IMG/VR virus record: IMGVR_UViG_3300030380_005007
Location: 1 to 52,364 of that record
DNA from: a virus
Reading direction: 5' to 3' (one strand)
DNA length: 52,364 bases
The translations under genes and the position numbers were made by a program. The notes beneath the pieces were generated by a model, which was given only the letters and a program-made list of their open reading frames with translations, was not told where the DNA came from and made no database searches. Position 1 is the stretch's first letter, and each line of letters starts with the position of its first letter. Shown piece after piece: positions 4,778 to 25,564 of this stretch.

Positions 4778-6626
4778 ACCAGGGGTAAACAGAGAAGGAA
4801 CCGACTACGATAACGAGGGCGGTTGGTTTGATGTAAACTTGGTAAGATTTAGAAAGGGTAGACCTGAAAAATTTGGTGGATGGGCAAAACTTTTAAGCAA
4901 TACTTTTTTGGGAACTTGCAGAGCTCTGCATGCTTGGATTGCTAATTCAGGTGAAAAATATTTAGGTCTTGGAACGCATTTTAAATATTATATTCAAGAA
5001 GGCACAACTTTTAATGATGTTACACCTCTTAGGCTTACAACTGCTGCAGGCGATGTAACTTTCTCTGCTTCAAATGGAGATGCGACAATTACTGTCGCTG
5101 ATACCGCACATGGCGCAGTACAAAACGACTTTGTTACTTTTTCAGGCGCAGCAAGTCTAGGTGGTAATATTACTGCTACTGTTTTAAACCAAGAATATCA
5201 AATCGCTACGATTGTGAATGCAAACTCATATACTGTTGAGGCAAAAGATACAAGCGATTCAACCGTAACTGCAAACGCTTCAGATACAGGAAACGGCGGT
5301 AGTTCTGTTGTTGGTAAATATCAAATTAATACAGGATTAGATGTTTTCGTTCCTTCAACAGGTTGGAGTGTTGGTTCTTGGAGTTCAGGAGCCTGGGGTT
5401 CATCTACTTCCTTATCTGCCTCAAATCAGCTTAGATTATGGACACATGATAACTTTGGCGAAAATTTAATCATCAATCCTAGAGGTGGTGGTATTTTTGA
5501 GTGGATTCAAAATGACGGTCTTAATACTAGGGCTGTTGAGTTGTCGGGCAGAACAGGAGCAAATTTAGTTCCAACCGTAGGACTACAAACAATTACCTCT
5601 GAAAAAGATAGGCATCTTATTGTTCTCGGCGCTGATCCTTTAAATGTAGGTGGTACAGCCAGAACAGGCACCGTAGATCCAATGTTTATCGCTTTTTCTG
5701 ACCAAGAAAACGAGTTAGAGTTTGAACCTTTAATTACCAATACTGCAGGCTCTTTACGATTATCTGCTGGTTCAGAAATTATCGGCGCGTGTAAAGCTAG
5801 ACAAGAAATACTTATTTGGACTGATACTTCACTTTATAGCATGCAATTTGTTGGACCGCCTTTTACATTTGCTGTTAACTTAATAAACCAAAATACAGGA
5901 ATGATAAGTCCTAAAGCGTGTGTTTCTGCTCCGGGTGGCGTGTATTGGATGGATACTAATAGCTTTTACATATATAACGGATCAGTAAGAGAAGTTCCTT
6001 GTTCTGTTTTAAATTATGTTTTCTCAGATATAAACAAAGATCAAGCATTTAAAATTCACGCTTTTACAATAATGGATAAAAATGAAGTAGGTTGGTTCTA
6101 TCCGTCCTCTTCATCCATCGAGGTAGACAGATACGTTTTATATAATTATGAAGAAAAAGTTTGGACTTATGGCCAGTTAGAGAGAACCGCTTGGTTGGAT
6201 TCAGGTATTGAATCATACCCAAGAGCTGTAGCTAATAATTATTTGTATCAACAAGAGTTTGGTTTTGACGATGACGGTTCGCCGATGACAAATGTTTTTA
6301 TTGAAAGTTCAGACTTTGATATCGGTGATGGCGAAAACTTTCAATTTATTCGACGTATGATTCCAGATATTAAGTTTTTACAAAACAGTAACGACTGTTC
6401 AGTTAACGTTGTTCTTAAAACTAGAAATAATCCTGGACAGTCTTTGTCAGCTAGCTCTACAAATGCAGTTCAAAGCAATACTGGTCAACTTAATATTAGA
6501 GCTAGAGGCCGTCAAGTTGCTCTTAGAGTTGAATCAGATGATGATGCAAGCAACGATGGTAATTTAGGAATAGGTTGGAGATTAGGGGCAACCAGATTAG
6601 ATATTAGACAAGACGGTAGAAGATGA
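4752..6626 (+). CDS. Tail stabilisation/hub-type structural protein
   Basis: The 624-residue protein opens with FRPGVNREGTDYDNEGGWFD, a start typical of a large structural protein found in many aquatic podoviruses next to connector or tail genes. Residues about 95-200 contain an inserted Thr/Ala/Ser-rich beta segment, and the rest is rich in W, G and beta-strand patterns. I infer a tail hub or nozzle-like role (compare P22 gp10-type stabilisation proteins), based on size, composition and position. It is coupled to the next gene by ATGA. Confidence 0.6.
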   Translation: MPLQKAIFRPGVNREGTDYDNEGGWFDVNLVRFRKGRPEKFGGWAKLLSNTFLGTCRALHAWIANSGEKYLGLGTHFKYYIQEGTTFNDVTPLRLTTAAGDVTFSASNGDATITVADTAHGAVQNDFVTFSGAASLGGNITATVLNQEYQIATIVNANSYTVEAKDTSDSTVTANASDTGNGGSSVVGKYQINTGLDVFVPSTGWSVGSWSSGAWGSSTSLSASNQLRLWTHDNFGENLIINPRGGGIFEWIQNDGLNTRAVELSGRTGANLVPTVGLQTITSEKDRHLIVLGADPLNVGGTARTGTVDPMFIAFSDQENELEFEPLITNTAGSLRLSAGSEIIGACKARQEILIWTDTSLYSMQFVGPPFTFAVNLINQNTGMISPKACVSAPGGVYWMDTNSFYIYNGSVREVPCSVLNYVFSDINKDQAFKIHAFTIMDKNEVGWFYPSSSSIEVDRYVLYNYEEKVWTYGQLERTAWLDSGIESYPRAVANNYLYQQEFGFDDDGSPMTNVFIESSDFDIGDGENFQFIRRMIPDIKFLQNSNDCSVNVVLKTRNNPGQSLSASSTNAVQSNTGQLNIRARGRQVALRVESDDDASNDGNLGIGWRLGATRLDIRQDGRR

Positions 6627-9987: not shown

Positions 9988-11471
9988 TGAATGTTTTACA
10001 AAGAAAAATGTTTGCTAAAGGAGACCAAGTAAAAAAATCAAGGGTTATCCCTAGGTTTGAAAACGATACGTTACCGTTAACAGACTTTCAAATTCAAACA
10101 GGTCAAAGAACAAACAGACAAGTAAAGCCTAGAGGGGCTGATCCTCAATTTGATTCTTTTTTAGATAGATACGGAATTACAGCATCTCAGTATGCAGAGG
10201 TACATGGTCTAATAGAACCTGAATCAGGAATGCTTGGATCTGTAACTCCAGAGCTATTCTTTGGACCTGGAGGCTTACAATCTTTAGCCTCAAAAATGTT
10301 TACAACCAAAACTGTCCCTACAGGATTAAGCGGAAAAGTCCAGTTGCCTGCAGGACAACAAGGACCTCTTCAAGTAAAAGAAATTACTAAAGATGTAACA
10401 ACCTTATCTCCTTTTGGTAAAACTGCAACTGTACTACCAGCCACTCTTGCTTTAACTGGATCGAAAGCAGTTGAGGAAGAGGAAGATACTATATCGGATG
10501 ATAAAGAAGTGGATTTGGTAGCGCAAAAAGATTTAGATGTAGATCTAACCTTAAAACCAAGCACGCAAAAACTTTTAGATGAGATAATGGGCAAAAAGAA
10601 AGTTGACCCAGCAGAAGAGCGAAAAAAAGTTGGTAAAGAAGAAATAGATTTTATTGATGCAAGTTTAAAAACACTACAAGACAGAAAAAACCAACAAATA
10701 GCTGCTGTTAACAAAAAGCAACAAGAAAAAGATTACGCAACGATGAATATATTTCTTGAAGAAGTTTCTGCAGCTTTAGCTGAAAGCAGAGGTGATCTTG
10801 GGATTGGTTTATCTCAAGGAGCAGCAAATGCAGCAAAAAGAATGGGCGAAGAAGAAAGAGAAGACGAGCTTGCTTTTATTGATGCTCTAAGTGATCTTGA
10901 TTTAGATGAGGGCGGTTTAGATTTGACTGAATCAAATGTATTAAAAATTTCTGAGAGATATAGAGATGCGGTTTCATCTATTGAAAAACAAGACAATTTA
11001 AGAACAATAATTGGAGAAATGAAGTCTGCAATTAGCGGCGGCAACGTTACCGGATTAACCGGTTTTGTCAGCAGAATGATTGATAACGTAGCAGGTTTTA
11101 CTGGAATTGGAGACGATATTGTTCGTGCCGCTACCTCAGCGAAAGATAAAGGCGAATACATACAGGCTCAAGCAATTCAACAAATACTACAAGAAAGTGG
11201 AAGAACTATTTCTGATAGAGATAGACAACTTATTAAACAAATTGTTGCAAACTTAGAAAATCCTTTTATGGGTAAAGGAAGAGCCGAAGAATCTTTATCA
11301 AGAATTTTAAATAATATAAGAATGTCAGAGGATGAAGCTAGGAAAGAAGTAGAGTTTTTAAGACAAAGATACGGAACAGTAATTCCTCAGCTTGGAATGT
11401 ATGATCAAGCTCTTAGTTCAGCACCAACAACAGAACCAGAATATAATCTAGACGACGTTATAACAGGATAA
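9987..11471 (+). CDS. Helical virion protein of the ejection group
   Basis: I place the start at the ATG at 9987 because it overlaps the upstream stop (TGATG) and has GGAGGG upstream; the frame could extend three bases to a TTG. The 494-residue product has acidic, Lys-rich helices between about residues 160 and 300 and is likely coiled-coil. Its gene lies between two other large virion proteins of unknown function. An internal or ejected role is inferred from the neighbourhood. Confidence 0.6.
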   Translation: MNVLQRKMFAKGDQVKKSRVIPRFENDTLPLTDFQIQTGQRTNRQVKPRGADPQFDSFLDRYGITASQYAEVHGLIEPESGMLGSVTPELFFGPGGLQSLASKMFTTKTVPTGLSGKVQLPAGQQGPLQVKEITKDVTTLSPFGKTATVLPATLALTGSKAVEEEEDTISDDKEVDLVAQKDLDVDLTLKPSTQKLLDEIMGKKKVDPAEERKKVGKEEIDFIDASLKTLQDRKNQQIAAVNKKQQEKDYATMNIFLEEVSAALAESRGDLGIGLSQGAANAAKRMGEEEREDELAFIDALSDLDLDEGGLDLTESNVLKISERYRDAVSSIEKQDNLRTIIGEMKSAISGGNVTGLTGFVSRMIDNVAGFTGIGDDIVRAATSAKDKGEYIQAQAIQQILQESGRTISDRDRQLIKQIVANLENPFMGKGRAEESLSRILNNIRMSEDEARKEVEFLRQRYGTVIPQLGMYDQALSSAPTTEPEYNLDDVITG

Positions 11472-19323: not shown

Positions 19324-19827
19324 ATGAGCGATTTTGCAGATGTCAAGTTTGATTTCAGTGATGATAATAGCAACACATATATACCCGAGGGCGATTATAC
19401 GACTGAGATAATTAAATGCGAAAAGACTAAGTCTAAAGCAGGTAATGATTATCTCGCACTTGAAGTTAAGGTTGTTGGTGAAAAATACAACGGCTGGATA
19501 GCAAGGAATAATTTTAACCTTTGGTATACCAACAGCGATGCTGAAAAGCAGGATGTGGTTAGAGAGATTGCTGCAAAGCAATTTTCAAAACTACTTAAAG
19601 CTTTGAACATGGATAAGAATCCACCGGCTAACGCTACTGAACTCGTTGGTCTGAACGTTGTTTCTTCACTTGGTATTGAGGAAAGCAATAACGAGGAGTA
19701 CCCTGATAGAAATAATATCACTGGGTTTTCATCCGTTACTGGCGAATCTTCAACACCCCCTAAAGTTGCACAGGATGCACCTGATTGGGTTGAGGAATCA
19801 AAACCAGCTAAACCTAGCTTAGGTTAA
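19324..19827 (+). CDS. DUF669-type ssDNA-binding protein
   Basis: The 167-residue product has the DUF669 pattern: a leading DFSDDN segment, PEGDYTTEIIKCEKTKSKAG, LALEVKVVGEKYNGW and a helical KQFSKLLKALNM. The C-terminus is acidic and Pro-rich, as in single-stranded DNA-binding proteins. The gene lies two bases after the Sak4-like gene, and such pairs are common in phage recombination modules. It probably coats ssDNA for annealing and replication. Confidence 0.8.
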   Translation: MSDFADVKFDFSDDNSNTYIPEGDYTTEIIKCEKTKSKAGNDYLALEVKVVGEKYNGWIARNNFNLWYTNSDAEKQDVVREIAAKQFSKLLKALNMDKNPPANATELVGLNVVSSLGIEESNNEEYPDRNNITGFSSVTGESSTPPKVAQDAPDWVEESKPAKPSLG

Positions 19828-19840
19828 ACAAGAAGGTGCG

Positions 19841-19886
19841 CTAGGGTGCCTCAAGAGTCTTTTCCCCCTGTTAATGACTCACCTAG
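19841..19886. terminator. Weak bidirectional hairpin between convergent operons
   Basis: CTAGGGTG at 19841 can pair with CACCTAG ending at 19886, and inner GAGTC pairs with GACTC; the left arm needs a bulge. The loop side has TTTTCCCCC but no clean U-run follows. It lies exactly between the convergent SSB gene and the gene ending at 19891, so a shared terminator is plausible but weak. Confidence 0.3.
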
Positions 19887-19890
19887 ACTT

Positions 19891-24448: not shown

Positions 24449-24640
24449 ATGGGAAGAATGTCAGATTTACATATCGGTATGTGCTCAGATGCAGAAACCG
24501 TTATTGACGATTGCGAGTCTTTTGAGGAGTTTTGCGATCGTATGGTTAAGATTAATTACTTGTATGTACCAAGCATGATTAAAGACATATGGGATGAGTT
24601 TCATATGAATGCTTATTACAAGTATGGCCCAGAGGGTTAG
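24449..24640 (+). CDS. Small hypothetical protein
   Basis: The 63-residue product is acidic with several Cys and Met (IGMCSDAETVIDDCESFEEF). It follows the previous gene by one base (TAATATG). Its stop codon begins the structured non-coding region at 24637. No family is recognised. Confidence 0.6.
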   Translation: MGRMSDLHIGMCSDAETVIDDCESFEEFCDRMVKINYLYVPSMIKDIWDEFHMNAYYKYGPEG

Positions 24641-24890
24641 TCTTCGCGAGCAGGCAAATACGTCTGGCCTGTTAAAATATTAAGAAGACGCTTTAGCCGT
24701 GCAGGTCTTTTTCATACCCTGCCTCCGTAACTTTGAGGTGTAGTTACCGGCGCAAACACCTCACCTATTTTAGTCGTCGCGGGTCCTTTTTTATTTTTCA
24801 TTCCCGCGTTTGGTAATGACGGGGTTTTTCCATTTCCTCGTATATAACTCTAAGGCGTAGTTAACGACGAAACGCCTTACTTTTCTTTTT
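24637..24890 (+). ncRNA. Tandem structured RNA with two covarying H-type pseudoknots
   Basis: Three segments each begin TTAGYC (24637, 24693, 24770). Segments 2 and 3 share one fold. TAACT (24728-24732; 24845-24849) pairs with AGTTA (24742-24746; 24859-24863). The loop between them pairs with a downstream arm: TGAGGTGT with ACACCTCA (24734-24741/24756-24763) and TAAGGCGT with ACGCCTTA (24851-24858/24872-24879). Loop lengths are the same in both (1, 0 and 8 bases). Compensatory changes occur at two pairs of this 8-bp stem, one pair of the hairpin GCAGG/CCTGC versus GCGGG/CCCGC, and one of GCCG/CGGC versus GTCG/CGAC. Segment 1 has GTCTTC/GAAGAC and CAGGC/GCCTG. No gene of credible length lies here. 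Each pseudoknot is followed by T-rich DNA, so terminator or attenuator function is possible. Confidence 0.6.
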
Positions 24891-24915
24891 AACCAAATTT
24901 AGCTAAACTCAAGAT

Positions 24916-25185
24916 ATGAAAGTCTTGGATATTAAAAAGAAGAAACCTTCTGTTGAAGAAGCGCAACGTCGCTTAGAAAAATTATTCTCGGAATTTATCG
25001 AACGCGGTTGCGATCAAGAGTTTCTCGCACTCTTGTTTTTTACTTTCAGCGTCACCGAAGTTTTCAATCACGCCACCACAACAAGCGAAGGATTAAAGAA
25101 AATAGATGATATTTTATATTCTACCTTTGGCGTAGAAAAACAAATCATTTTTACCCCAGAATTACCCCCGGAATTTGACGAATAG
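24916..25185 (+). CDS. Hypothetical protein between the structured RNA and the iterons
   Basis: The 89-residue product is helical, with a basic N-terminus (DIKKKKPSVEEAQRRLEKLF), a hydrophobic-aromatic centre (FLALLFFTFSVTEVF) and an acidic end. It is not the size or pattern of a type III toxin. No family is recognised. Its stop codon abuts the first iteron. Confidence 0.6.
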   Translation: MKVLDIKKKKPSVEEAQRRLEKLFSEFIERGCDQEFLALLFFTFSVTEVFNHATTTSEGLKKIDDILYSTFGVEKQIIFTPELPPEFDE

Positions 25186-25527
25186 TTTTGTCATAAAGTT
25201 CTGACAAAAGACCCCCTTCATTATCGGAATTAGTCGCATTTAGGTGCGATTTGGTAATAGTTTTGTCATATTGTCAGATTTGTCAAAACAGCGCAAATGC
25301 AGTAGCAGAGCACTTTTGGCAGTTTTGTCGTTTTGTCAGAGTACCCCCTTAGAATCTCTATAAATCCCTACAAAATCGTAAAATAAATGGGGGGGTAAAG
25401 AAAAGTATGACAAAACTAATAATATGACTAAATATATATATAATATTATATAAATATATTACCTTATATCAGTATTTTATAGATGTTGAATAGTTTTGTC
25501 AGAGTTTTGTCAAAGGCTTTGACAAAA
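25185..25527. other. Iteron cluster with AT-rich block: candidate replication origin or pac site
   Basis: GTTTTGTCA or a close variant occurs about ten times in both orientations: plus at 25185, 25260, 25279 (short form), 25322 (ending G), 25330, 25493 and 25504; minus at 25202, 25408 and 25520. The last two form a near-perfect palindrome at 25505-25527 with 11-base arms around one central base. An almost pure A/T stretch lies at 25430-25462. Iterons next to an AT-rich block are the usual layout of an initiator-dependent origin. The position just upstream of the terminase small-subunit gene also fits a packaging site. Confidence 0.6.
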
Positions 25528-25564
25528 GTATCTGCAAAAGATGTGATAAACTTGTTGATATAGT

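Follow-up and report, generated by a model that had tools for sequence, protein, structure and literature searches.

The window, that is, the whole stretch of DNA analysed here, is a 52,364-base IMG/VR virus record, which was assigned to a tailed phage by its recognised terminase, portal and head genes. Its large terminase shared ~58-63% identity with the large terminases of phage 023Pt_psg01, DSL-LC04 and the Pelagibacter phages HTVC023P and HTVC027P. An RNA element sits between two small + strand ORFs of this record (24449-24640 and 24916-25185), near replication, SSB and terminase small-subunit genes. PHROG and Pfam searches of both flanking ORFs, P0001 and P0002, gave no matches, with remote homology remaining possible; in the window, no ORF of at least 60 aa was found across the element and no tRNA was found at it. 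A preliminary description of this DNA had reported an H-type pseudoknot in two segments, which are termed domains A and B below. The features of the locus, including a separate pseudoknot, PK1, in front of both domains, are as follows.

24449..24640, + strand: upstream ORF P0001, 63 aa, without known family
24638..24640, + strand: stop codon TAG of upstream ORF P0001; in most relatives the stop, usually TAA, lies 6 bases before PK1
24644..24649, + strand: conserved palindrome TCGCGA, replaced by TCCGGA in other relatives
24650..24655, + strand: PK1 S1 5' arm GCAGGC; pairs in all 27 distinct sequences
24661..24665, + strand: PK1 S2 5' arm CGTCT; GC/AT, TA/CG and CG/TA pair types co-vary with 24686-24690
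24667..24672, + strand: PK1 S1 3' arm GCCTGT; pairs with the 24650..24655 arm
24686..24690, + strand: PK1 S2 3' arm AGACG; pairs with the 24661..24665 arm
24696..24700, + strand: domain A P1 5' arm, GCCG with the fifth base unpaired here; pairs with 24748-24751
24701..24722, + strand: domain A P2 hairpin GCAGG...CCTGC, an optional helix that the L190 class lacks; in the alignment, each of the seven P2 pairs is changed on both sides
24727..24732, + strand: domain A P3 5' arm GTAACT (S1 of the preliminary description), covarying
24734..24741, + strand: domain A pseudoknot 5' arm TGAGGTGT (S2 of the preliminary description), covarying
24742..24747, + strand: domain A P3 3' arm AGTTAC
24748..24751, + strand: domain A P1 3' arm CGGC
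24756..24763, + strand: domain A pseudoknot 3' arm ACACCTCA
24773..24777, + strand: domain B P1 5' arm GTCGT
24778..24808, + strand: domain B P2 hairpin CGCGGG...CCCGCG
24819..24841, + strand: domain B extra hairpin ACGGGG...CCTCGT, only in B copies; compatible changes in L004
24845..24868, + strand: domain B P3 TAACT/AGTTA, pseudoknot 5' arm TAAGGCGT (24851-24858) and P1 3' arm ACGAC (24864-24868)
24872..24879, + strand: domain B pseudoknot 3' arm ACGCCTTA, then CTTTTCTTTTT
24904..24915, + strand: likely -10 box (TAAACT) and start-site region of a leaderless downstream gene, judged by sequence; -10-like box 4-8 bases before ATG in 23/45 distinct relatives
24916..25185, + strand: downstream ORF P0002, 89 aa, without known family

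The block TCGCGA at 24644-24649 and the TCCGGA of other classes are both palindromes, in which two neighbouring bases are swapped and the symmetry is kept. P0002 (24916-25185) and its relatives form a small protein family with apparently leaderless expression, the -10-like box (TATACT, TACAAT or TAAACT) ending 4-8 bases before ATG. Between P0002 and the terminase small-subunit gene, the window (25185-25560) carries many TTTTGTCA/TGACAAAA copies and a CCCCC...GGGGGGG pair, which may mark a replication origin or packaging site; L011 and L012 carry similar repeats.

The two domain pseudoknots were checked base by base. In segment A, S1 is formed by 24727-24732/24742-24747 and S2 by 24734-24741/24756-24763, with loops L1, L2 and L3 of 1, 0 and 8 bases; in segment B, S1 (24845-24849/24859-24863) and S2 (24851-24858/24872-24879) are joined by loops of the same lengths. 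The offset between the segments, given earlier as about 117 bases, is exactly 117. As had been claimed, the S2 arms TGAGGTGT/ACACCTCA and TAAGGCGT/ACGCCTTA differ by two compensated pairs, and two further helices carry one each, namely P1 (GCCG/CGGC vs GTCG/CGAC) and P2 (GCAGG/CCTGC vs GCGGG/CCCGC). A scan of the window on both strands for this S1/L1/S2/L2 geometry with L3 of 6-12 bases gave 3 occurrences, two of them being segments A and B; by chance (60 dinucleotide shuffles, whole window), it occurred 0.38 times on average and never more than twice. Nested-only folding energy was unremarkable (z -0.3 to -2.2) in a folding program that cannot score pseudoknots. The third, diverged segment that had been placed in front of these two is no diverged copy but the separate H-type pseudoknot PK1, at 24650-24690. 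A pairing of GTCTTC with GAAGAC (24640-24645/24684-24689) around the first segment was rejected, as it is unconserved in relatives.

From 5' to 3', the consensus element consists of a stop codon, six bases reading TC(GC or CG)GA, PK1 (6-bp S1, 5-bp S2 and an A-rich third loop), a short linker and the domain or domains. PK1 is the best conserved part. Within a domain, P1 (about 5 bp) encloses the optional hairpin P2 and the hairpin P3 (5-6 bp), and the loop of P3 forms the 5' arm of an 8-bp helix, the 3' arm of which follows P1 at a distance of 3-5 bases. By a simple A-form estimate, P1, P3 and the 8-bp pseudoknot can stack in one column with a short A-rich closing strand, a fold that would be tight but feasible because ~4 bases are needed to close 10 bp and 3-5 are observed.

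Relatives were gathered by exact-pattern scans and by scans in which the downstream ORF protein, the terminase small subunit or the helicase served as the query. About 120 IMG/VR loci between similar genes carry the RNA, and parsing them gave 45 distinct sequences, several loci being one contig retrieved by different scans. The helicases of most relatives were 74-100% identical, and in nearly all relatives reaching far enough the RNA preceded the helicase gene in the same orientation. A structural descriptor that fixed only the end letters of one helix found 14 true motifs and one false motif in 2.2 Mb.

Covariation was then counted across the relatives. In alignment A5, 94.4% of pair cells were standard pairs, compared with 37-44% in slid controls, and 17 pairs were changed on both sides, a number reached in 0 of 500 shuffles. 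A structure-anchored table of 27 distinct sequences placed covariation in PK1 S2, P1, P3 and the 8-bp pseudoknot, and parsimony on a tree built from the helicases of 38 relatives gave about 19 double-change events. PK1 S2 occurs as CGTCT/AGACG, CATCT/AGATG, CACCT/AGGTG and CGTTA/TAACG; in the commonest marine type (CATTC with GAAGTG), four of its five positions are paired, or a bulge is used. PK1 S1 varies on one side only. The 8-bp helix occurs as TGAGGTGT, TGAGATGT, TGAGGTAT, TGGGATCT, TGGGGCTT, TGGGGCGT and TGGAGTGT, each with a matching partner. Since G-T cells (60) far outnumbered A-C cells (14, of which 13 came from the last position of PK1 S2), the coding-sense (+) strand is the folding strand.

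These results indicate that the RNA structure is kept by selection, as the preliminary description had proposed from the two segments. Covariation in independent relatives extends over P1, P2 and P3 as well as the 8-bp pseudoknot and S2 of PK1, and pairing is kept across relatives; no conserved protein frame was seen, and both loops and spacers differ in length, by single bases as well as by tens of bases. A conserved RNA structure at this site is close to certain. Two occurrences of a pseudoknot in a single sequence can thus be borne out by a whole family.

The tandem arrangement holds for the window and not as a general rule, being limited to the window and close relatives: two domains occur in the window, L002 and L004, and the other classes have a single domain. 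P2 is missing in the L190, L231 and L254 types and in the L193 type, whose domain is the smallest, and P1 in one relative, L283, while the L232, L238 and L250 types keep PK1 and have the domain replaced by another 3' fold. In L232, L233, L238 and L250, the outer arms of the fold behind PK1 (GATATG/CATATC and GGTATG/CATACC) co-vary. An extra domain copy behind the SSB gene, at a convergent-gene junction, is present in some relatives and cleanly absent in others with the same flanks (e.g. L165 and L176 compared).

This extra 3WJ-pseudoknot domain was seen at 11141-11214 (-) of L165 and 5926-6002 (-) of L166, and also in L114, L163, L168-L172, L179 and L186; some relatives have a knot helix with entirely different letters (AGAGCGC/GCGCTCT). 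A second, separate pseudoknot lies behind the SSB gene (19324-19827) of the window, at 19825-19890 (+), with a hairpin GGTGC/GTGCC whose loop, GCTAGG, is paired to a CCTAG lying 3' of a variable inner hairpin. It is kept with varying stems in about 30 distinct sequences, occurs also behind a different SSB-like protein in the GC-richer contigs L289, L303, L305 and L324, and gave no Rfam match.

No real copy of the RNA was found in the isolates 023Pt_psg01, DSL-LC04, HTVC023P and HTVC027P, and weak model matches in G001, G007 and HTVC023P had no knot when the sequence was inspected. blastn against isolated phages and plasmids returned nothing meaningful, only chance stretches of 21-27 bases. Eighteen PK1 pattern matches in genome contigs are likely due to chance, none having a domain under the structural descriptor, and model R1 found 0 copies in 754 genomes of two proteobacterial classes (strict filters, without positive control). 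At the gathering score, none of the 4227 families of Rfam 15 matched the window or five relatives, and no family, xrRNA-type models included, matched 24500-25000 at E up to 10, in line with the earlier statement that the RNA belongs to no named class. The topologies of hammerhead, HDV-like and twister RNAs do not fit the pairing order of the element. No description of the RNA was found in the open-licence full-text literature. The RNA family is thus new, being previously undescribed and without an Rfam match.

As to the genomic setting, the gap between stop codon and PK1 measures 6 bases in 51 of 61 loci (9 bases in the window and L004), and the upstream genes vary. Because a simple promoter scan gave no promoter before the RNA, it is most likely part of the upstream mRNA. 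Directly behind the RNA, a -10-like box of the next gene, an apparent leaderless promoter, was found in 23 of the 45 distinct sequences; in 18, a ribosome site for that gene was found. The downstream gene types are unrelated (P0002-like, MLKADGF type, cytosine methyltransferase and others); an attenuator array for one downstream gene, which had been suggested earlier, is disfavoured because the downstream gene varies.

The stop-codon spacing, the promoter or ribosome site of another gene beside which the element ends, the SSB copy at a convergent-gene junction and the lack of a promoter in front fit a cis element at message ends. We tentatively favour, with a probability of roughly 0.38, a new phage RNA element family that would act in cis at the message 3' end, its knots blocking exonucleases so as to fix and protect the end of the upstream mRNA. 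Once the last ribosome has left, the knots would fold into a barrier that is hard to unwind, and exonucleases would halt there, mainly those moving 3'-to-5' and possibly also 5'-to-3', as at viral xrRNAs. The end of the upstream message would then be fixed and protected, and its decay uncoupled from the next gene. Some observations run counter to a pure 3'-end role: in the 18 distinct sequences where the RNA is directly followed by a gene that has a ribosome site and no evident promoter, it is also a 5' leader, L283 is without P1, and L232, L238 and L250 have another fold for the domain. The fixed stop-codon spacing could instead be a sign of a translation-termination role.

A stable free RNA, processed from the message and acting in trans, e.g., by sequestering a host or phage protein as a decoy or sponge, is conceivable although on the unlikely side. 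The domain is self-contained and compact, tandem in the window and independent of flanking gene identity, and its unpaired letters are conserved in the TTTATTCAT-like P2 loop, the A-rich PK1 loop and the A-rich closing strand, all of which would suit such an RNA. However, no promoter was found in front, P2 and its conserved loop are missing from whole classes, and in every case the site is either the region behind one and the same small gene or the end of the SSB gene.

Rather unlikely is a transcription terminator or attenuator, with a pseudoknot in place of the usual hairpin, that would end the upstream unit before the next promoter. The promoter directly behind the RNA in 23 of 45 sequences, the copies between convergent genes and the T-rich tail after the knot (CTTTTCTTTTT in the window; mean 4.5 T in 8 bases) point in this direction. 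Yet at least 5 T in the first 8 bases occur in only 26 of the 45 and some have 2-3, a scan for intrinsic terminators (GC-rich hairpin and direct U-run) was empty at the element, and marine relatives have a gene right behind it with no evident promoter. An exonuclease block seems likelier than termination because the U-run is not constant.

An action on ribosomes at the stop codon, be it recoding, slowed termination or a block of re-initiation, appears improbable. The 6 bases between stop and PK1 resemble the spacing of known recoding signals, and the SSB gene has another knot ~5-7 bases past its stop, but the frame past the stop is unconserved, PK1 loop length differs by single bases between close relatives, and no slippery sequence was noted on unsystematic inspection. 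Even less probable is a riboswitch or leader controlling the gene behind: the RNA is near the ribosome site of that gene in 18 of 45 sequences, but several unrelated gene types follow, and in about half of the sequences the next gene has its own apparent leaderless promoter. That the structure matters as single-stranded DNA in replication or packaging is highly improbable, for although replication, SSB and terminase small-subunit genes are near, G-T cells far exceed A-C cells and the element lies behind stop codons, oriented with the upstream gene.

Several local motifs were also considered and rejected. PK1 as a promoter (TATAAA in its loop) is an insufficient explanation, as S2 shows covariation and the spacer differs in length by 1-2 bases. 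A P2 loop hiding the P0002 start codon (TTTCAT vs ATGAAA) was discarded since the loop motif stays where the downstream gene starts differently, and Shine-Dalgarno mimicry by TGAGGTGT since other classes carry TGGGATCT or TGGGGCTT.

The element was compared with known RNAs. The STAXI motif (RF01728), the closest described SSB-linked tandem pseudoknot, is found near SSB and further genes for DNA handling (PMC2864571). The phage element is similar in its tandem pseudoknots (in the window) near SSB and DNA-handling genes, but no UUCG tetraloops were seen, the gene neighbourhood is another one, and it usually has one domain (two in the window, L002 and L004) whereas the STAXI pseudoknot occurs two or three times; the RF01728 model matched 0 of 7 records (window and six relatives) at E up to 10. 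In flaviviral xrRNAs, P1 encloses P2 and P3, the P3 loop pairs 3' of P1, copies occur in tandem, and the rings stop bacterial RNase J1 in vitro (PMC7603331, PMC5760640). The phage domain has the same P1/P2/P3 pairing order, covarying, and tandem copies. Unlike in the flaviviral RNAs, its P2 is dispensable and missing in several classes, so that the three-way junction is not constant; the pseudoknot has 8 bp vs about 4 in Zika xrRNA1, and the element comes from a DNA phage. Flaviviral xrRNAs are further marked by a second small pseudoknot linking 5' strand and junction, with a base triple, and by halting a 5'-to-3' exoribonuclease unaided by cofactors; no counterpart of that small pseudoknot was noted in the phage domain on unsystematic inspection. 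By analogy, it may work like an xrRNA, though it is not classed as one. It is doubtful, though worth stating, that an xrRNA-like ring-shaped knot evolved in uncultured DNA phages independently of RNA viruses and would mechanically stop bacterial exoribonucleases as a modular, duplicable message-end cap.

REP/BIME sequences of enterobacteria are modular intergenic structures behind stop codons, variable among close relatives, which shield upstream mRNA from 3'-to-5' exonucleases. The phage element is likewise modular, intergenic, behind stop codons and present or absent in close relatives; REP sequences, however, are simple imperfect hairpins in chromosomes, whereas the phage element is a pseudoknotted fold with one or two fixed sites. 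Type III toxin-antitoxin RNAs (ToxI and kin) are tandem H-type pseudoknots in repeats of ~36-45 nt beside a toxin gene. The phage element shares the tandem H-type pseudoknots (in the window), but its domains are about 55-113 nt, and its neighbours have no Pfam or PHROG match, with no toxin gene recognised.

Taken as a whole, an uncultured group of aquatic phages carries an RNA family with unusually clear covariation, two pseudoknots included, which is absent from Rfam. The compact fold and its covariation provide ready-made partners for broken and restored constructs, and make it directly testable whether knotted RNAs serve phages to shape or withstand mRNA decay.
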